Source: an uncultured Anaerolineae bacterium (GTDB lineage: Bacteria > Chloroflexota > Anaerolineae > Anaerolineales > Villigracilaceae). Taken from it: a stretch of 52,958 bases of DNA. The DNA lies in contig CAIJPN010000093.1 of assembly GCA_903822545.1 (NCBI GenBank), forward strand, positions 1-52,958. The letters run 5' to 3'. Below, in pieces: positions 1,858 to 41,802 of this stretch; within the stretch, counting starts at the first letter, position 1, and each line of letters starts with the position of its first letter. Under the pieces are notes generated by a model. It was not told the origin of the DNA. It made no database searches and saw nothing but the letters and a program-made list of their open reading frames with translations. Position numbers and translations under genes: made by a program.

Positions 1858-3783
1858 ATGTTAAACACCCTTGAAAACAGGTTAATTGCCCTTTTCTCCG
1901 CTTTTGCACTGCTGGTGCTAATTTCGGTTGGCGCAACCACCTGGGGATTAGAAACCCAGCGGCAGGATGCCGTGCTGATCAACCTGTCTGGACGCCAGCG
2001 CATGTTGGCGCAGCAAATGGCCCGGCTGGCCTTTGAAGCAGGCGCAAGCGGAGCCATCAACAATGCCGCGCTGCAAGAATCGGAGCAAATATTTGGGCAG
2101 ACTCTTTCCGCGCTGAAAGATGGTGGATCCGTTCCCTACCTGCCGCAAAGCCCCATCTCGATTCCGGGCACACAAGACCCACAGCTGCGCTCCGCGTTGG
2201 GAGATGTGGAGCAAACCTGGGGGGAGTATCAAATCCTGCTCGACAGGCTGCAACAACCCCCCGGCGATGATCCTGCTTTCGCCCTGACGCTGGCCGCCGT
2301 TGAACAGACCTCCTCCACACTGGTGCAGCAAGCCGACGTGGTTGTGCGGCTCTACGAGGCCGCTTCCACTGCCAAAGTCAACCGGTTGCGCGCCATCCAG
2401 ATCAGTTTCCTGGCCTGTGCGCTGGCCCTGCTGGCGGCAGGAGCCTGGATCACGCGCCAATCTGTGCTTTTACCGCTCCGGCAGCTTTCACGGGCGGCGA
2501 AGCGTCTTGGGGAGAACGATCTCGATACGGTGGTGGCGGTTGAAGGGCCGGTGGAACTGCGCGAACTGTCCAAATCCTTCGATGCTACCCGGCTCAGCTT
2601 GCGTTCATCCCGCCAGGAATTGCTGCAACTAAACACCAGCCTGGAAGAGCGCGTGGCCCGGCGTACCCGTGAGTTGGAAACCCTCAACGAAGTCAGCCGC
2701 GACATCTCATCGCGGCTGGATATCCAGCAGGTGTTGAACTCGGTGACCGAAAAAGCGCGTAGTTTGCTGGGCAGCGAGGTGGCTTCGCTCTGCCTGGTGG
2801 ATGAGAGCCAGCACTGGATGAAACTGCAAGCCGTCAGTGGGCCGGAAAGTGCGGTTGCCGGGCACACCGTCTGCGCAGATGAAGACCTGGCGGGGGCCGT
2901 GTTGAAAAGCGAACAGGCCCTGGTCTGCGGGTTGGGCGCGTGCCGGGGTGGCTGCCGCATGATGGCTGACCCCTATAAGGTCAGTCACCTGGCCGCGCCG
3001 CTGCGCATCGGCGAGCGGGTGATTGGGGCGCTGTGTGTGGGCAGTGTTTCACAGGATCGTTTTGCCGTCGAATCGGCCGAAATGCTGACCAAACTTGCCA
3101 ACGCTGCCGCCATCGCATTGGAAAATGCCCGGTTGTACGCGCAGGCTGAAAAAGTCGCCACGCTGGAAGAGCGCCGGCGCGTGGCTGCCGACATGCACGA
3201 TGGCCTGGGGCAAACGCTCAGCTACCTCGGCCTGATGACTGACCAGGTGGTGGAGTTTTTATCGGCCGGGCGGGATGGGGCTGCGCTGGAACATCTCCAG
3301 AAAACCCGCCAGACAATCCAATCTGCCACAGCCGAGGTGCGCCGCGCCATCAACAACCTGATGAGCGACAGCCCCTCCGCGCTGGATTTATGCACCCGGC
3401 TGCATAACATTGCGGATGAGTTTGCCGCGGAACACAATTTGCCCGTTTCCTGGTATGAAGATTCGGCTTTTGCGCCCAGGCCTGAGCGCAAAGTCGCGGA
3501 CCAGGTGCTGAACATCACCCGCGAGGCGCTCACCAACGTGGCGCGGCATGCCGAGGCGCACAAAGCCACGCTCCAGGTGGGAAATACTGCAGGGCATTAC
3601 TATGTTTCGGTTCAGGATGATGGCCACGGGTTCGATGCCACTCAGCCCGGGCCGAGCGGCCATTTTGGGTTGCAGATCATGAAGTCGCGCGCCATGCTGG
3701 TCGGTGGTCAGCTTGAGGTTGAATCTGCGCCAGGGCGCGGAACACGCGTTACATTGATCTGGCCCATGGGGAAGGACGGATAA
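1858..3783 (+). CDS. NarX/NarQ-like sensor histidine kinase
   Basis: A 641-residue membrane sensor that probably detects nitrate or nitrite outside the cell and phosphorylates the NarL-like regulator encoded 3 bases downstream. In order: TM1 about 9-31; a periplasmic helical domain opening with NLSGRQRMLAQQ (42-53), matching the nitrate-binding P-box of NarX and PilJ/NarX domains; TM2 about 181-200; HAMP about 200-255; a coiled coil; a GAF module about 283-425; HisKA_3 with phospho-acceptor His447 in ADMHDGLGQ; and a HATPase domain with N-box NITREALTNVARHA and DDGHGFD. The GAF module carries a cysteine cluster (Cys357, Cys362, Cys366) that might sense redox state. Only a weak AGGA precedes the ATG. 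The position next to the nar operon supports the role. The exact ligand is inferred from the P-box. Confidence 0.88.
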   Translation: MLNTLENRLIALFSAFALLVLISVGATTWGLETQRQDAVLINLSGRQRMLAQQMARLAFEAGASGAINNAALQESEQIFGQTLSALKDGGSVPYLPQSPISIPGTQDPQLRSALGDVEQTWGEYQILLDRLQQPPGDDPAFALTLAAVEQTSSTLVQQADVVVRLYEAASTAKVNRLRAIQISFLACALALLAAGAWITRQSVLLPLRQLSRAAKRLGENDLDTVVAVEGPVELRELSKSFDATRLSLRSSRQELLQLNTSLEERVARRTRELETLNEVSRDISSRLDIQQVLNSVTEKARSLLGSEVASLCLVDESQHWMKLQAVSGPESAVAGHTVCADEDLAGAVLKSEQALVCGLGACRGGCRMMADPYKVSHLAAPLRIGERVIGALCVGSVSQDRFAVESAEMLTKLANAAAIALENARLYAQAEKVATLEERRRVAADMHDGLGQTLSYLGLMTDQVVEFLSAGRDGAALEHLQKTRQTIQSATAEVRRAINNLMSDSPSALDLCTRLHNIADEFAAEHNLPVSWYEDSAFAPRPERKVADQVLNITREALTNVARHAEAHKATLQVGNTAGHYYVSVQDDGHGFDATQPGPSGHFGLQIMKSRAMLVGGQLEVESAPGRGTRVTLIWPMGKDG

Positions 3784-3786
3784 CCC

Positions 3787-4440
3787 ATGCCACGAGTGCG
3801 CGTTTTACTGGCCGATGACCATGCCCTGTTCCGCGAGGGGCTGGCAGGAATTGTCAACAACCAGCCGGATATGGAAGTGGTCGGCGAAGCGAACGATGGG
3901 CTGGAGGCGCTGGTGAAAGCCCGCGAGCTTAAACCTGACCTGATCTTGATGGATGTGCAGATGCCAGGCATGGATGGCCTGGAAGCCACCCGCCAGATCA
4001 AACAGGCCTTGCCAGCCACCACAATTGTGGTGCTGACCGTCCGCGATGATGACGAGAAGTTATTCGAAGCGTTGAAGAATGGCGCGCAGGGCTACCTGCT
4101 CAAAGACATCCGCTCGGCAGAGATGCTGGCGCTGTTGCGCGGGGCGCTGCACGGCGAGGCGGCGCTCTCGCCCGGCATGGCAGGCCATGTGCTGGCCGAA
4201 TTCCGCCGCCTGAGCAAGTTTGCCGGTGAACCTGATCGGGAGGAAAACACCGGTTTAACGGAACGCGAGCAACAGGTATTGTTGCAGGCATCGCTGGGAT
4301 CCACGGATAAGGAGATCGCCGAGGTGTTGAGCATCAGCCTGAATACGGTCAAAACACACATTCGCAACATCCTGGCCAAGCTGCAAGTTTCCACACGCCG
4401 CGAGGCGGCCAGGGTGGCGCGCGGCCGCGGGCTGATGTAG
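3787..4440 (+). CDS. NarL/FixJ-family response regulator, partner of the NarX-like kinase
   Basis: A 217-residue regulator. The receiver domain has the acidic pair Asp10/Asp11, phospho-acceptor Asp56 in LILMDVQMPG, and a conserved Lys in GYLLKD. A linker leads to a LuxR-type helix-turn-helix starting LTEREQQVL and containing SLNTVKTHIRNIL. It starts 3 bases after the kinase stop and must be cotranscribed. Phosphorylation by the upstream kinase should let it activate the nar operon that begins about 110 bases further on. A clear NarL heptamer pair was not identified there, so the target is inferred from context. A strong terminator follows. Confidence 0.9.
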   Translation: MPRVRVLLADDHALFREGLAGIVNNQPDMEVVGEANDGLEALVKARELKPDLILMDVQMPGMDGLEATRQIKQALPATTIVVLTVRDDDEKLFEALKNGAQGYLLKDIRSAEMLALLRGALHGEAALSPGMAGHVLAEFRRLSKFAGEPDREENTGLTEREQQVLLQASLGSTDKEIAEVLSISLNTVKTHIRNILAKLQVSTRREAARVARGRGLM

Positions 4441-34247: not shown

Positions 34248-35846
34248 TCAGCTAAAGATCGTGATGCGGTTGCGCCCGTTCTCTTTGGAGAGATAGAGCG
34301 CCTGATCGGCCGCGGAGAGCAGCCGTTCGCCATCGCAACCATGGGTGGGGAAGGCGGAAATCCCGGCAGAGATGGTGGCCATGGGTATTTTTTGTCCCTG
34401 GAAGTCGATTTTTGTGGTTTCGAGGATTTTGCGCCACTCTTCCACGCGCTCGTGGGCTGCTTCGAGTGTTGCGCCAGGCATCAGCACGATAAATTCTTCG
34501 CCGCCATAACGGCAGGAGATGTCACTGCGGCGGGTGTGCGCCGCGAGCATTTTGGACATTTCGATCAGCACATGGTCACCGCATTTGTGCCCATAGGTGT
34601 CGTTGTATTTCTTGAAATGATCAAGATCCATGGCGACCACGCAAAGCATGTCGTTTTCACGTTCGGCGCGGGCCAATTCCCGGTCGATAACATCGGCCAG
34701 GTAGCGGCGATTGTACAGGCCTGTCAGCGGGTCGTGGATGGCCTGTTCTTGCAATTGGGCACGCAACGCTTCCACCTGGCGGATCTGCTCGGTGAGGGCC
34801 TGGTTGGCGTGTTTCAACTCGATTTCCATGCGTTTGCGCAGTGAAATATCGCGCGCCACAATAACGCGGCCTTCCAGCAGGCCCTGGCGGTTGTACAGCG
34901 GCGAGACGATCAGTTCCAGCGTGCGCGAAGGCTCGTTGGGGATGCTGATCTCATGCAGCGTACCCTGGGTCCCTTGCATGAGATGTGACCCCAGGCCGCT
35001 CCACAGTTTGAAAACGGACATGATATCTTGCCCGATAATCTCTTTTTCGGGCTTCTTGGCCCAGTTCATGGTGGCGCGGTTGATATCCAAAACGCGATTG
35101 TAGGCGTCCACAACAATAACCATTTCGGGGATGTTTTCGAGTACCACGTTGCGCGCAATCGGGATCAGGTCGAACATGCGCAGGCCGATGACGCCGATGC
35201 TCATCAGGGCGGCAGTGACCAGGAAAGAGATGGGAGCCACATCCACGGTGATGATGTGCAACTGGTAGATGATGTTGGTCACCAGCGGGACCAAGAGCCC
35301 CAGCAGCACAAAGGTGATCTGGCGGCGGTAGATGTCGCGCAGGCGGATCATGTGCCAGAGCATCAACACGAAACCGGCCAGCAGCAGCCCATAGGTTTGC
35401 ACCAACTGGAAGGTGTACCAGTACCCGCCCTTGACTGCCAGCGGGCCGCCGTTTTGGGGCACGGCAGAAGTGTAGTAATAGCCAAACCAAACCCCTGAAA
35501 ATAACAGCACCAGCGTAACAGTGGGAATGATAAAGAACAACAGCCGCACCGGGCGCGTAAGCCACTTATCGTTATGGGTGTATTCACAAGTGAAGAAGAA
35601 CCAGAAGATGGCGGTGGTGGTGATGCCAATATTCTCAATTTTGAGCCAGAGTATCTTGCCATCCAGTTCTGGCGAAATCACGATCATGGCATAGCCAAAT
35701 GTCCAGATGGTGAGAGCCAGGAACATCATGACCATGGAATGGCTGCCTGGGGCGTAACGCTTCATGGCGACCATCAAGGCCAGCACCAGGGCAACCAGGC
35801 CGTTGATGATGAGGATTGCGGCAAAAACCATCCATTGCATGCTCAT
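34248..35846 (-). CDS. 7TM-PAS-GGDEF diguanylate cyclase
   Basis: A 532-residue membrane enzyme predicted to make cyclic di-GMP. Residues about 1-225 form the seven-helix sensor seen in HisKA_7TM-type proteins (LALTIWTFGYAMIV, WLKIENIGITTTAIFWFFF). A PAS domain follows (about 235-345, PEMVIVVDAYNRVLDINRA to VARDISLRKRME), then a coiled coil and GGDEF domain (about 365-530) with DPLTGLYNRRYL and active-site RYGGEEFIVL near residue 449. GGEEF is a competent variant. A GATAAT box (35855-35860) lies eight bases before the ATG, and AAGGA lies 13 bases away, so initiation may be leaderless. Its pairing with arginase in one operon is unexplained. Confidence 0.9.
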   Translation of the reverse strand: MSMQWMVFAAILIINGLVALVLALMVAMKRYAPGSHSMVMMFLALTIWTFGYAMIVISPELDGKILWLKIENIGITTTAIFWFFFTCEYTHNDKWLTRPVRLLFFIIPTVTLVLLFSGVWFGYYYTSAVPQNGGPLAVKGGYWYTFQLVQTYGLLLAGFVLMLWHMIRLRDIYRRQITFVLLGLLVPLVTNIIYQLHIITVDVAPISFLVTAALMSIGVIGLRMFDLIPIARNVVLENIPEMVIVVDAYNRVLDINRATMNWAKKPEKEIIGQDIMSVFKLWSGLGSHLMQGTQGTLHEISIPNEPSRTLELIVSPLYNRQGLLEGRVIVARDISLRKRMEIELKHANQALTEQIRQVEALRAQLQEQAIHDPLTGLYNRRYLADVIDRELARAERENDMLCVVAMDLDHFKKYNDTYGHKCGDHVLIEMSKMLAAHTRRSDISCRYGGEEFIVLMPGATLEAAHERVEEWRKILETTKIDFQGQKIPMATISAGISAFPTHGCDGERLLSAADQALYLSKENGRNRITIFS

Positions 35847-37640: not shown

Positions 37641-39323
37641 ATGAACCAGCTTCCCGCAAAATCAATCCAGGCGCGCCTGGCATTTTTGATCGGCGCACTG
37701 GTACTGACGGCGGCAATCACCGCGCTGATTGGTATCGTCAACGCCGCCAAGTTCCAGCAGCAGCTTGCCCAGGTGGAAAATTATGCCGCCACCTTGCAGC
37801 AAAACGCCGATGCGCGTTCTGACCTGCTCAAGGCGCAGATCGCGCTCAAAAATACATTCATCACCGAAGAATACCGCGCGCAGGATTATGGTGATTATGC
37901 CTGGTACTCACAGCGATTCGATGAGTACCTGTACATGCAGTCGTTGCGCGGGAAACCTGTGGCAGATTTGAAAACGCAAAATGATCTGTATAAAACCCAG
38001 AGCAACGACTTTTTCACTGAAATAGATGCCGTGCAGTCAGGTGAATCCACGCTGGAAGATGATGAAGTAAATGCCATCCTGGCGCAGATGAATCTCGACG
38101 AGATCGACCCGAACGCGCAGCAGATGGAAAAGGGAATGCAGCAGCTCTACACCCTGGATTTACAGTCCATGCGCGCAGAGATTGCCGCAATCGAGGAACG
38201 CACCCGCCTGAACCTGTTCGTTGGGCAGCTTGCGATGCTGGCGCTGGCCGCCCTGATCATCTGGAGCGCTTACGAGATGATGCACATCTCCAGACCATTG
38301 GAAAACCTGACCGGGGCAATTGTGGCCTTTGAAAACAAAACCTACCAACCCGAGCTGCTATCCAGCGATGAAAAACGCCCCGATGAGCTGGGTGAACTGG
38401 CCCGCGCTGTGGGTGGGATGGCGGTATCGATAACAGAATCGAACCGGCTGAAGGAACAATTCTTGCAGGCGGCCCAACGCTTCGTGCCATCGCAATACCT
38501 CGAATTTCTCGAAAAAGACAGCATTACCAGCGTAAAACTCGGAGATCACGTCAGCGCCGAGATGGCGGTGATGTTCTCCGATATTCGCGGCTTCACCAGC
38601 ATGTCTGAAAAAATGACCGCCAAAGAAAACTTTGATTTTGTCAACGAATATCTCAAGCTGGTCAGCCCAATCATCCAAAAACACGATGGGTTCATCGTCA
38701 AATTCCTGGGAGATGGCATGATGGCGATCTTCCCCTACGGTGTCAACGATGCGGTACAGGCGGGCATCGAAAAATCCCAACTGGTGCAGCAATTCAACCA
38801 GACACTCAAAACACGCGGATTACCGCCCATCAGCGTTGGTATCGGCGTCCACACCGGGCCGATGATGGTTGGCATGATCGGCGAAGAAATGCGCATGCAG
38901 GGCGATGCCTTCTCAGATAATGTTAATCTGACCTCGCGCATCGAGGGGCTGAACAAATTCTATGGCACATCCATGATCATCAGCGAGGACACATTGCGCC
39001 AGCTGCCACAGACGCTCAAAATGCGCTCGCTCGGGAAAGCTGTTGTTAAAGGCCGCGCTGGGCCGCTGGGGATGTATGAAGTTTATGAGGGCTTGCCAGC
39101 CGAAATGGTGGCCCTGAAAGAATCCACCCGCCCAGGCTTTGAGCGCGGCATCCAGCTTTTCGCCGCCGGGAAATTCGCCGAAGCCGGGAGCCTGTTCAGC
39201 AAAGTGCTGGAACAGGATCACACTGACAAAACCGCCAAAGTCTACATCGAATATTGCGCCGAGATGCTCGATCGCCCGCTGCCCGCAGGCTGGGATGGCG
39301 CCATTGTGATGGACAGCAAATAG
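37641..39323 (+). CDS. Membrane class III adenylate cyclase with HAMP domain
   Basis: A 560-residue receptor cyclase. TM1 is about 16-36 and an extracytoplasmic helical sensor about 37-194 (coiled, MCP-like). TM2 is about 195-215, HAMP about 215-270, and the cyclase domain about 300-480. Metal ligands Asp314 (MFSDIRGFTS) and Asp358 (KFLGDG), adenine-selecting Lys354 and Asp426, and transition-state residues Asn429 and Arg433 (DNVNLTSR) are all present. The complete set predicts cAMP synthesis rather than cGMP. The C-terminal about 70 residues form a TPR-like helix pair (GIQLFAAGKFAEAGSLFSKV). The ATG at 37641 follows GAGGAG. It is the first gene of a unit with two receptor-like proteins that have no enzyme domain. 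Confidence 0.92.
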   Translation: MNQLPAKSIQARLAFLIGALVLTAAITALIGIVNAAKFQQQLAQVENYAATLQQNADARSDLLKAQIALKNTFITEEYRAQDYGDYAWYSQRFDEYLYMQSLRGKPVADLKTQNDLYKTQSNDFFTEIDAVQSGESTLEDDEVNAILAQMNLDEIDPNAQQMEKGMQQLYTLDLQSMRAEIAAIEERTRLNLFVGQLAMLALAALIIWSAYEMMHISRPLENLTGAIVAFENKTYQPELLSSDEKRPDELGELARAVGGMAVSITESNRLKEQFLQAAQRFVPSQYLEFLEKDSITSVKLGDHVSAEMAVMFSDIRGFTSMSEKMTAKENFDFVNEYLKLVSPIIQKHDGFIVKFLGDGMMAIFPYGVNDAVQAGIEKSQLVQQFNQTLKTRGLPPISVGIGVHTGPMMVGMIGEEMRMQGDAFSDNVNLTSRIEGLNKFYGTSMIISEDTLRQLPQTLKMRSLGKAVVKGRAGPLGMYEVYEGLPAEMVALKESTRPGFERGIQLFAAGKFAEAGSLFSKVLEQDHTDKTAKVYIEYCAEMLDRPLPAGWDGAIVMDSK

Positions 39324-39340
39324 CCGCGCAGGAGAAACCC

Positions 39341-40249
39341 ATGAAGAAAATCTTTACCTACATCAAAGCGTTTTTCTCGCTCGGTCAGCTGGGGGTTGTA
39401 ATTGCCCTGCTGGCAGCCACCATCCTGTTTGCGGCGGCCAGCCAGTTTTTAAGCTCTTTCGATGCCGCTTTTGCGCACATGGAGGTGCTGAACGCCATAG
39501 AAGGCAACGTAGCCAGCAGCCTGGCCGATATGCAACTTAACGAGGCCCGCGCACTGTTTACCAGCAATTACGAACTTGAAGAAGATGGCAGCGCCGCAAA
39601 AGCCCGTGAAGCAGATCAAGCCATCGGGGCAGAATTTTCCAGGCTGGCAGCGGAAGGTAGATTCAGCCCCGAAAATCTCTATTCCAGCGACATCAATGAC
39701 AAAGTGGACACCTTCAACACCGCCCGCAAAAAACACAGCGGGCTTGTGGATGAGCGCATCGCCGCCGTGGCAGAGGTTGACGATGAAATCACCGCCGAGG
39801 TAGAAGCCGCCCAGGAATCCGATTTCGAGAACCTGAACAAATCCCTGCGCGAAATGATCATCGAGATAGAACACAACCGGCTGGATGCGCTGCAAACCTT
39901 CCCCGGACAGGTCAACACATCCATCCTGATCCTCGCCGTGGCCTTTGGGCTGTGCCTGGCGCTGGCCCTGATGGGCTACCAGGGCATCGCAGCCACCGTG
40001 CGGCCCCTGCGCCGCCTGCGCAACGCCATCACCGCCCTCAGCGGCGACCTGTACCAGCCCCAAAACAACCGGATGAGCGGTTCGGCAGGCAGCCTGGCGC
40101 GCGCATTGGATGAGTTGGCGCGGGCTGAACAGCAACGCAACCAGGCCAGCAAAGTTGAAATCGAAAAACTGCGCCGGGAATTGTATGAATCGCGCCGCAG
40201 GCGGCTGAAAATATCACGCGATACCACCCGCCAGGAGGTGCAGCCATGA
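39341..40249 (+). CDS. Receptor-like two-span protein lacking an output domain (1)
   Basis: A 302-residue protein. TM1 is about 15-38 (LGQLGVVIALLAATILFAAA) and the extracytoplasmic helical domain about 39-210, rich in Glu and Asp. TM2 is about 212-232 (ILILAVAFGLCLALALMGY), followed by a HAMP-like segment (GIAATVRPLRRLRNAITALS) and a basic coiled coil (KVEIEKLRRELYESRRRRLK). No kinase, cyclase, methyl-accepting or DNA-binding module follows. The topology matches that of the upstream cyclase without its catalytic part. AGGAG lies at 39329-39333. The stop overlaps the next start as ATGA. It probably forms mixed bundles with the cyclase; this is inference from topology and operon. I recognise no family. 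Confidence 0.75.
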   Translation: MKKIFTYIKAFFSLGQLGVVIALLAATILFAAASQFLSSFDAAFAHMEVLNAIEGNVASSLADMQLNEARALFTSNYELEEDGSAAKAREADQAIGAEFSRLAAEGRFSPENLYSSDINDKVDTFNTARKKHSGLVDERIAAVAEVDDEITAEVEAAQESDFENLNKSLREMIIEIEHNRLDALQTFPGQVNTSILILAVAFGLCLALALMGYQGIAATVRPLRRLRNAITALSGDLYQPQNNRMSGSAGSLARALDELARAEQQRNQASKVEIEKLRRELYESRRRRLKISRDTTRQEVQP

Positions 40250-41100
40250 AAACCCCAAAAACACCTTCCAACGTGCAGGCCCGGCTGGTTTCCGTTTTTT
40301 CCATCTTTTTTGCTTTTTGTGTGCTCATCCTGAGCTTTTTCCTGTACAGTGTGGTCAGCATGGTAGATTACAACCGCCAGGCCAGTGCCACCTTCGAGGC
40401 CAACCGGCAGGTTTACCAGCTCGAAGCGCAGTTTAAGCAATATGAACTTGGCCTGAAACATTACGAAATCAGCGCATCATATCAATCTGAGGAAGAACTC
40501 TCGGCGCTGGATCGCCGCATCGATGAGAACCTGGCTGCCCTGGCGCTGACCCTGCCCGAAGACAGCCAACCCGCCCTGGAAACTGTTTCCGCCACCAAAG
40601 CCGACCTGACCCGCCTGGTGGATGACATCCTCGCAACCGTTGACGATCAAGACGAGTTGGATGCTGATGAGCAAGACTGGGATGCAGTGGCCGAACTGGA
40701 TGCCCAAACCACCGGGCCATTCACCAAAATCTATGCCAGCATCGCCGAAATCCGCAGCGCTGGCGTATCACAACTGGAAGATATTCGCTTTGGCGCATCG
40801 GTGCTTGGACAGCTGGCATTTTTTAGCATGATCGCGGCAATATTTGGGTTCGTGGTGCTGGCTTTTACCGTTTCACTAATCGTCTCGGCACAGATCAACC
40901 TGCCGATGGAACAGCTTGCCAGCGCTGCGCGTGACCTGCAAGCGCGCAAATTCAACCCGGCAGAAGTACAAAACCTGGCACCTCGCAACGATGAAGTTGG
41001 CGCAATGGCGCGCGATTTCCTATCGATGGCCGCATCTGTCGAGCAGCGCACAGCGCAACTCCAGCAGGAAGCGGATGAAATCCGGGCAAAAATTCGTTAG
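40246..41100 (+). CDS. Receptor-like two-span HAMP protein lacking an output domain (2)
   Basis: A 284-residue protein with the same plan as its neighbour: TM1 about 13-37 (LVSVFSIFFAFCVLILSFFL), an acidic helical extracytoplasmic domain about 38-185 (including DDQDELDADEQDWD), and TM2 about 188-212 (GQLAFFSMIAAIFGFVVLAF). A recognisable HAMP follows (NLPMEQLASAARDLQARKF to PRNDEVGAMARDF), then a short coiled coil and the end. NVQARLVSVFS resembles IQARLAFLIG at the start of the cyclase. The 4-base overlap with the preceding gene shows coupling. It has no output domain and no clear family; a modulator of the cyclase is the simplest reading. Confidence 0.75.
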   Translation: MKTPKTPSNVQARLVSVFSIFFAFCVLILSFFLYSVVSMVDYNRQASATFEANRQVYQLEAQFKQYELGLKHYEISASYQSEEELSALDRRIDENLAALALTLPEDSQPALETVSATKADLTRLVDDILATVDDQDELDADEQDWDAVAELDAQTTGPFTKIYASIAEIRSAGVSQLEDIRFGASVLGQLAFFSMIAAIFGFVVLAFTVSLIVSAQINLPMEQLASAARDLQARKFNPAEVQNLAPRNDEVGAMARDFLSMAASVEQRTAQLQQEADEIRAKIR

Positions 41101-41115: not shown

Positions 41116-41802
41116 ATGACATCCCAATTAACCTGGCACGGACATGCCACCCTGGGGCTGGAGACCGGCGGTTACAGGCTGGTCATCGACCCGTTTTTCA
41201 ACGGCAACCCCGCCGCCACACTCCCGGCAGAAAAAGTCGAGGCAGATTTCCTGCTCGTCAGCCACGGGCACGGTGATCATGTCGGCGACGCCGTCCATAT
41301 TGCACAACGCACCGGAGCAACCATCATCAGCAACTTTGAGATCGCCTCGTGGTTTGCAAAACAAGGCGTGGAAAAAACACACGGCCAGCACATCGGCGGC
41401 GGGTTCAAACACCCGTTTGGCTATCTCAAGCTGACGCAGGCGCTGCACGGCTCGTCACTGCCCGATGGCTCCAATGGCGGCAACCCCTGCGGCTTCCTTC
41501 TGACCACCCAGGATGGCAAAAAACTCTATTTCGCTCAAGATACCGGCCTGTTTGGCGATATGAAATTGATCGGCGAGGAAGGACTCAACCTGGCAGTCAT
41601 CCCCATTGGTGACAACTACACCATGGGGCCAGATGATGCCCTCCGCGCGGTGAAATTGCTGGCCCCCAAAGTAGTCATCCCGATCCACTACAACACATGG
41701 GGACTGATCGCCCAGGATGGGCAGGCCTGGGCCGCGCGAGTAGCACAGGAAACCGGCACAAAAGCAGTCATCCTGAAGCCAGGCGACAGCTTCAGCTTGT
41801 AA
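41116..41802 (+). CDS. UPF0173-type metallo-beta-lactamase-fold hydrolase
   Basis: A 228-residue MBL-fold protein. Metal motifs are SHGHGDHVGDA (the HxHxDH core), HIGGGFKHPFG, YFAQDTGLFGDM and VIPIHYNTW. Start TWHGHATLGLE and end ILKPGDSF are typical of UPF0173 (YtkL) proteins. The family has no proven reaction. Its position 15 bases after the cyclase unit raises the idea of a cyclic-nucleotide phosphodiesterase, since class II phosphodiesterases share the fold, but the motif set is that of UPF0173, not of class II enzymes. AAAGGAG precedes the ATG. Confidence 0.88.
   Translation: MTSQLTWHGHATLGLETGGYRLVIDPFFNGNPAATLPAEKVEADFLLVSHGHGDHVGDAVHIAQRTGATIISNFEIASWFAKQGVEKTHGQHIGGGFKHPFGYLKLTQALHGSSLPDGSNGGNPCGFLLTTQDGKKLYFAQDTGLFGDMKLIGEEGLNLAVIPIGDNYTMGPDDALRAVKLLAPKVVIPIHYNTWGLIAQDGQAWAARVAQETGTKAVILKPGDSFSL

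Follow-up and report, generated by a model that had tools for sequence, protein, structure and literature searches.

A conserved three-gene cluster of some Chloroflexota encodes a receptor adenylate cyclase and two output-less sister chains, candidates for a heteromeric receptor

In a 52,958-nucleotide contig of an uncultured Anaerolineae bacterium (GenBank assembly GCA_903822545.1, contig CAIJPN010000093.1; hereafter, the window), the gene for a receptor class III adenylate cyclase (AC) is followed by two genes, R1 and R2, whose products resemble the receptor half of AC and stop where an enzyme domain would begin. The order AC-R1-R2 was found in eight loci, and profile comparison and a tree show the receptor half of AC, R1 and R2 to be sister families that have been inherited together. 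From these comparisons, we put at slightly better than even the chance that the cluster specifies a dedicated heteromeric receptor cyclase, in which R1 and R2 would be physically assembled with AC and regulate its catalytic dimer.

The window corresponds to contig C93 in a genome of 5.53 Mb and 237 contigs (coordinates in Table 1). The first-pass annotation, made from the sequence alone, had described a complete receptor cyclase followed by two tightly coupled genes with an ATGA overlap, and the open frames and gaps bear this out: 17 bases separate the AC stop from the R1 start, and R1 and R2 share four bases (ATGA). All three genes are preceded by Shine-Dalgarno-like sequences, as judged by eye, an in-frame TTG lies 21 bases 5' of the AC ATG at 37641, and the three genes are probably co-transcribed. 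That annotation had proposed a check on the three-gene order in other genomes, and the order recurs in L042 (genome G118), L043 (G120), L044 (G035), L045 (G019), L060, L063 (G354) and L078, in addition to the window. Across these eight loci, the AC-R1 gap is 9–38 bases and the R1-R2 gap −4 to 21 bases, with the four-base overlap in three of them. AC is complete in five; the contigs of L043, L044 and L078 begin within it, that of L078 also with a run of N, and an AC receptor half at the end of contig C92 of G035 fits the AC cut in L044.

The surroundings of the cluster vary, with at least six distinct downstream flanks: those of the window, of the genus-g17 trio (L042, L043 and L044), and of L045, L060, L063 and L078. 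When flanking genes were compared at E≤1e-8, using the window genes at 30–49 kb, the trio had a downstream block in common, L042 and L045 had an upstream block in common, and one kinase gene of L063 was 41–43% identical over ~275 residues to a gene of the trio. L060 and L078 had no flanking genes in common with other loci at this threshold, and the window flanks gave a single match, of 104 residues, to L044; when all of the window was compared at E≤1e-4, the gene at 3787–4440 additionally matched two L044 genes. No constant extra partner gene was found across the compared flanks. The order of the triad has been retained while its surroundings vary.

Relatives of R1 and R2 were sought in 61 related genomes, 152 genomes of the family (R2), 400 of the order (R1) and 400 of the phylum (R2), with few first-look candidates scored per genome, so that misses are possible (five for R1 in the order, six for R2 in the phylum, 16 for R2 in the family and three for AC in the order and class). 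Five full-length R1 matches were obtained in the order, all of them in triads, and a sixth match, in G307, covers positions 203–274 only. The five close R2 matches in the family likewise all lie in triads, beside three weak ones (G071, G151 and G006). Within the genomes searched, and with the few candidates scored in each, neither a full-length R1 nor a close R2 was found away from a cyclase. Conversely, the AC alignment gave nine matches at E≤1e-100 in 400 genomes of the order, seven of which extend into the receptor half; six of these seven genomes have the partners behind AC (G000, G035, G118, G120, G043 and G354), and in G236 the sequence ends inside AC. The remaining two, G041 and G257, were matched only from position 264 onward. 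Among 396 genomes of the class, the start of the alignment was matched by the window alone, and 22 others begin at position 242 or later. Of 49 loci sharing the AC catalytic domain, the gene lists of 31 were compared, and an R1/R2-like pair (two transmembrane helices, ~270–330 aa; judged elsewhere by length and helix count) stands behind the cyclase only in L058–L063 and L078. Short-frame matches in G021 and G028 are histidine kinases.

These distributions bear on one alternative, namely that R1 and R2 form a receptor of their own, as homo- or heterodimers, which signals through its conserved tails to another protein and shares the cluster with AC because both sense related conditions, with no contact between them. 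The finding of full-length R1 and close R2 only at loci with a cyclase in the genomes searched, the co-inheritance of three chains of one family and the lack of a constant extra partner gene in the flanks all argue against it. In its favour, the tail of R1 is conserved and basic (RRRRLK), which would suit a soluble partner or the membrane surface, and enzyme-less HAMP receptors with another tail do occur with no cyclase nearby. Those of G071, G151, G006 and G025 are HAMP proteins of 301–334 aa that have no output domain and differ from R1 and R2 in sensor and tail, one of them with sub-threshold Cache matches; no cyclase domain was found near the receptors of G006, G071 and G025 (19 kb) or G151 (a 5.9 kb contig). 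When R2 was searched against the phylum, 12 matches outside the window were obtained (50.8–66.2 bits), with a cyclase at one of these 12 short loci, in G802. Among the others, that of G974 is a CHASE3-HAMP chemoreceptor, and that of G097 (contig C73) is a 334-aa HAMP protein that lacks an output domain and has no cyclase within 13 kb. The first-pass annotation had named a wide occurrence of the small genes without a cyclase as a reason for doubt; for the R1 and R2 families themselves this is not borne out in the genomes searched, where all full-length R1 and close R2 matches lie behind a cyclase, while for output-less HAMP receptors as a type it stands. Overall, we think it unlikely that R1 and R2 act apart from AC, and give this alternative a clear minority share of our belief.

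Solitary output-less HAMP receptors were recorded at L048:9050-10027 (−), L050:4573-5550 (+), L049:8983-9987 (+) and L047:9220-10125 (+), and in L173 and L174. They share a C-terminal motif around (S/T)(E/D)(Y/F)F..L, with a basic end behind it; the protein of L047 stops just past TEYF. In G802 (L167:1559-6046, −), a receptor of this solitary type (332 aa) lies 54 bases before the gene of a soluble cyclase-AAA-TPR protein (1144 aa) on the same strand. This receptor has three copies in G802, the one genome of its class that was searched, and the cyclase stands beside the copy on contig C273 only, with none within 1.5 kb on either side of the other two. G802 thus holds another possible split receptor cyclase, built on a different receptor family. 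It speaks for the idea that an output-less receptor may serve a separately encoded cyclase, and to the same degree for the alternative in which such receptors act on soluble partners. Together with G802, the triad may exemplify a broader tendency in the phylum to place receptor and cyclase on separate chains.

The kinship of the three chains was evident from profile comparison. R2 and AC were related with 99.1% probability (E 8.8e-19) from the first transmembrane helix through the HAMP domain, R1 and R2 with 98.9% (E 3.5e-17), and R1 and AC with 96.7% (E 3.2e-10), here over the stretch between R1 residue ~120 and the end of HAMP. A maximum-likelihood tree of 25 rows, which omitted two cut AC rows (G120 and G035), the four solitary receptors and one chain of a four-gene variant (Ra, below), placed AC, R1 and R2 each on one side of a branch (98/96, 96/94 and 95/91). 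The order of genomes within the three groups was similar, not identical, and the long branches Rb_G043 and R2_G043 were placed unsurely; the row AC_G019 had been trimmed slightly further along, by a few residues, than the rest of the AC rows. In alignments A1 and A4, the L042 R1 row lacks the first Met and the L043 row carries six extra N-terminal residues. On this evidence, the AC receptor half, R1 and R2 are three old sister families, jointly inherited, and the simplest history would be two early duplications followed by joint inheritance.

The absence of any output domain could also mean that the two small genes are remnants of cyclases, in decay or truncated by a frameshift, a deletion or an assembly error; the first-pass annotation had raised a frameshift or assembly error at the outset. 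This reading fails on inspection of the orthologues, which end at the same place with conserved tails, form one clade each and are tightly spaced, and we attach next to no probability to it. The R1 tail contains RRR in all eight loci (RRRRLK in seven, RRRKFK in L078), and R2 ends in EIRAKI or a close variant in eight of nine chains, the exception being the R2-like chain of L046, while L078 has extra residues. R1 and R2 are thus complete as encoded, with conserved ends. In the window's own genome, the R2 open frame (303 aa) is the shortest among 33 HAMP matches, the next being 351 aa.

Domain searches and structure predictions agree with the earlier description of R1 and R2 as sharing the topology of AC and ending where the enzyme would begin. 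No output domain was found in R1 or R2, and no MCP (methyl-accepting chemotaxis protein) signalling domain in AC, R1 or R2, among Pfam matches at E≤1; against NCBIfam, R1 and R2 had only weak matches, far under the cut-off. The HAMP match of R2, which carries the DExG motif, falls below the Pfam cut-off of 25 bits by hmmscan and above it in the genome search (Table 1). AlphaFold2 predicted R2 with a mean pLDDT (predicted local distance difference test) of 88 and helices at 10–76, 79–102, 105–136, 146–232 and 250–283; R1 was predicted helical throughout, with a mean of 75 and values <50 in the HAMP connector. In both models, the long helices are consistent with a transmembrane helix, a helical sensor, a second transmembrane helix, a HAMP-like hairpin and a coil, the sensor of the R2 model forming a helical bundle. 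The R2 model resembled the sensor-transmembrane-HAMP fragment of NarQ (5iji; E 5.7e-5, TM-scores 0.46/0.56), a likeness also found by profile at positions 180–269, as well as a chemoreceptor chain in 8c5v (266 residues, Z 13.8) and the helical chemoreceptor sensor McpS (Z 17.4 over 121 residues), Z values for helical bundles being of moderate information value only. With the R1 model, Foldseek returned nothing at E≤0.001.

AC itself has its catalytic residues intact. Its Guanylate_cyc match lies well above the Pfam cut-off of 21.9 bits (Table 1), which places it among the class III cyclases, and its HAMP match (25.8 bits) is above the threshold of 25. The sensor fell below threshold against the Pfam families TarH and 4HB_MCP (15.6 and 12.2 bits; cut-offs 25.2 and 27), no NCBIfam family was assigned, and the C-terminal tail gave a weak TPR match. 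D314, K354, D358, D422, N429 and R433 are invariant in all six rows of alignment A3, the window included. We take D314 and D358 to be the two metal-binding aspartates, K354 and D422 the adenine-selecting pair, and N429 and R433 the Asn/Arg set. A Lys/Asp pair is the mark of ATP-selecting class III cyclases. When AC was aligned to solved cyclases, K354 fell on Lys and D422 on Thr in CyaB of Pseudomonas aeruginosa (3r5g). A search of the window's own genome gave 22 matches for the cyclase family and 27 for the cyclic-nucleotide-binding domain, which makes signalling through cAMP plausible in this organism; from the residue pattern and the cyclic-nucleotide-binding neighbours in L046 and L075 (below), the product of AC is probably cAMP.

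Table 1. Positions of the cluster genes and their principal domains in the window
Feature	Position	Strand	Description
AC, receptor class III adenylate cyclase	37641..39323	+	560 aa; ATG start; first transmembrane helix, helical sensor, second transmembrane helix, HAMP 215-264, short coil, cyclase 307-476, C-terminal tail
Cyclase catalytic domain of AC	38559..39071	+	78.3 bits (genome search); 75.2 bits (Pfam)
R1, output-less receptor chain	39341..40249	+	302 aa; divergent HAMP without DExG Glu; conserved tail LYESRRRRLK
Divergent HAMP-like region of R1 (residues ~216-263)	39986..40129	+	aligned by hhalign to R2 and AC; junction GSAG, not DExG
R2, output-less receptor chain	40246..41100	+	284 aa; HAMP with DEVG motif; conserved tail EIRAKI
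HAMP of R2	40885..41043	+	25.5 bits, E 9.7e-5 (genome search); 21.9 bits (hmmscan)

The two output-less chains differ at the junction between the HAMP connector and the second amphipathic helix (AS2). The Glu of the DExG motif is present there in none of eight R1 chains, in all nine R2 chains and in six of seven AC chains (the exception, Z414, has DDLG); it is also missing from the Rb chain of L046, and R1 retains the junction glycine in all eight. In a study of an engineered chemoreceptor, the response to ligand returned once DELG had been introduced into a HAMP domain, and Glu alone did not bring it back; canonical HAMP domains are described there as needing the motif to couple to membrane signals, and divergent ones as keeping the glycine only (PMC3570549). 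Taken with that result, the split in the DExG Glu suggests unequal roles, in which R2 would be the signal-taking chain and R1 a structural or biasing chain.

In the mechanism that we favour, an ancestral sensor-transmembrane-HAMP receptor half would have been duplicated twice, one copy bearing the cyclase (AC) and two without one (R1 and R2) becoming its permanent partners. AC, R1 and R2 would be produced jointly and come together in the membrane by way of their sensor bundles, transmembrane helices, HAMP domains and coils. Two AC chains would form the catalytic pair, and R1 and R2, probably paired with each other as a divergent and a canonical HAMP, would pack beside it. They would receive an extracytoplasmic signal, presumably through a ligand, and bias the AC HAMP and coil toward or away from the active dimer, the signals from all chains being summed at the AC coil.

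A different use of the same contacts would make R1 and/or R2 inhibitory decoys, which would form 1:1 pairs with AC by way of HAMP and coil, disrupt the catalytic dimer and determine the basal output until a ligand releases them. The RetS/GacS pair offers an analogue among kinases, and it would fit such decoys that R1 and R2 end about where the catalytic module of AC starts and that the R1 HAMP has lost the DExG Glu. Class III cyclases of this kind are also described as requiring dimerisation (PMC4821796). Two different decoys would however be redundant, the HAMP motif of R2 is canonical, and the tight gene spacing would give no obvious excess of inhibitor. We regard decoys as improbable, more so than a receptor acting apart from AC.

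The favoured reading of a heteromeric receptor cyclase gains from a four-gene variant in L046 (G043, from another family of the order), where three partner genes stand behind AC, encoding Ra (300 aa), Rb (353 aa) and an R2-like chain. Ra is matched by the R1 profile at 1–72 only (hhalign 94.1%, E 1.2e-7), and Rb chiefly at 132–296, so R1 has apparently been split over the two, with added parts; the helices of R1 would therefore have to meet in trans. Ra (L046:10424-11326, −) has an R1-like N-terminus, then four repeats rich in Cys (C....P...GC type) and an acidic tail rich in Pro and Gly; it gave no Pfam match at E≤0.01.

Several observations weigh against the heteromeric reading. Paralogy and a shared cluster would also fit separate receptors within one regulon. 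The R1 HAMP match, at 13.7 bits, is below the Pfam cut-off; the region is HAMP-derived and divergent, given that the R1 orthologue in L078 reaches 23.5 bits. The cyclase-free receptors described above, of another type, indicate that output-less HAMP proteins need not serve a cyclase. The split of R1 is seen in one genome, and the second locus of that kind, L075, ends inside AC. The arrangement is rare, with partners seen in six of 400 genomes of the order, and the seven triad loci beyond the window are all metagenome assemblies (labelled Chloroflexi, Anaerolineae, Anaerolineales or Anaerolineaceae).

The components of the cluster are all of known kinds, while their co-inherited combination was not found described: among the papers listed by a literature search, in which most subscription journals were not covered, none gave an account of one catalytic chain with two or three sister chains that lack an output domain. 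Studies of HAMP receptors usually deal with homodimers in which one chain carries both sensor and output. Chemoreceptors and NarQ have a sensor-transmembrane-HAMP part like the R2 model, whereas in R1 and R2 only a short coil follows, with neither an MCP nor a kinase domain. In RetS-GacS, a sister membrane receptor modulates the output of another by hetero-association, as in the proposed triad, but RetS has a kinase-type cytoplasmic part; R1 and R2 have none, are encoded with the enzyme and make two partners. We know of no partner chains of the same receptor family for cyclases such as the mycobacterial Rv3645, which has a six-transmembrane anchor, unlike the two transmembrane helices and helical sensor of AC. 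Such HAMP-linked class III cyclases likewise combine a membrane anchor, HAMP and cyclase, and need a homodimer for catalysis (PMC4821796). The heterodimeric soluble guanylate cyclase is also a class III cyclase of non-identical chains (PMC2828450), but each of its subunits carries a catalytic domain, compared with one chain of three in AC-R1-R2.

That a single catalytic chain is permanently assembled with two non-catalytic sisters, or three in one lineage, which give sensor and HAMP helices in trans and divide the labour between a canonical R2 and a DExG-less R1, is a proposal that we place somewhat short of an even chance. If true, it would represent a kind of subunit regulation of class III cyclases that we have not found described, and the lineage with a split R1 would show the helices of one receptor spread across several chains. 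With one catalytic chain and two output-less ones inherited together in nature, one could ask how HAMP signals are summed when the chains differ and whether receptors are assembled combinatorially in bacteria, and the natural DExG-plus and DExG-minus pair of R2 and R1 offers a built-in test of how HAMP domains take up membrane signals.

Genes next to the cluster were also recorded. In L046:8468-18615 (−) and L075:2-6654, the cyclase cluster is headed by genes of patatin/NTE-like and MFS-like/HEAT/cyclic-nucleotide-binding proteins. Upstream of the L046 AC, on the same strand, they encode a protein with two cyclic-nucleotide-binding domains and a patatin domain, and another with transporter-like, HEAT and cyclic-nucleotide-binding parts; in L075 the truncated AC is preceded by the same pair of genes (85% and 79% identical). 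These neighbours would fit a cAMP output, and are not constant across loci. A TLC ATP/ADP transporter family gene (identified by domain scan in L042) stands second on the divergent side in L042 (13031-14380) and L045 (11756-13096), beside a ParA/MinD-like ATPase, and is 21–24% identical over ~320 residues to the transporter-like/HEAT/cyclic-nucleotide-binding protein of L046. In L078, AC-R1-R2 is followed by a zinc-ribbon cyclase gene (2732-4312; Guanylate_cyc 51.9 bits), which is truncated by the end of the contig.

In the window, a metallo-beta-lactamase-fold hydrolase gene (41116–41802, +) begins 15 bases 3' of R2 and is perhaps co-read with the triad in this genome; as a fourth member of the cluster it is unsupported, with no similar gene among the compared flanks. 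On the other side of the cluster, past an imidazolonepropionase-like gene, lies a diguanylate cyclase gene with HisKA_7TM and PAS domains (34248–35846, −).

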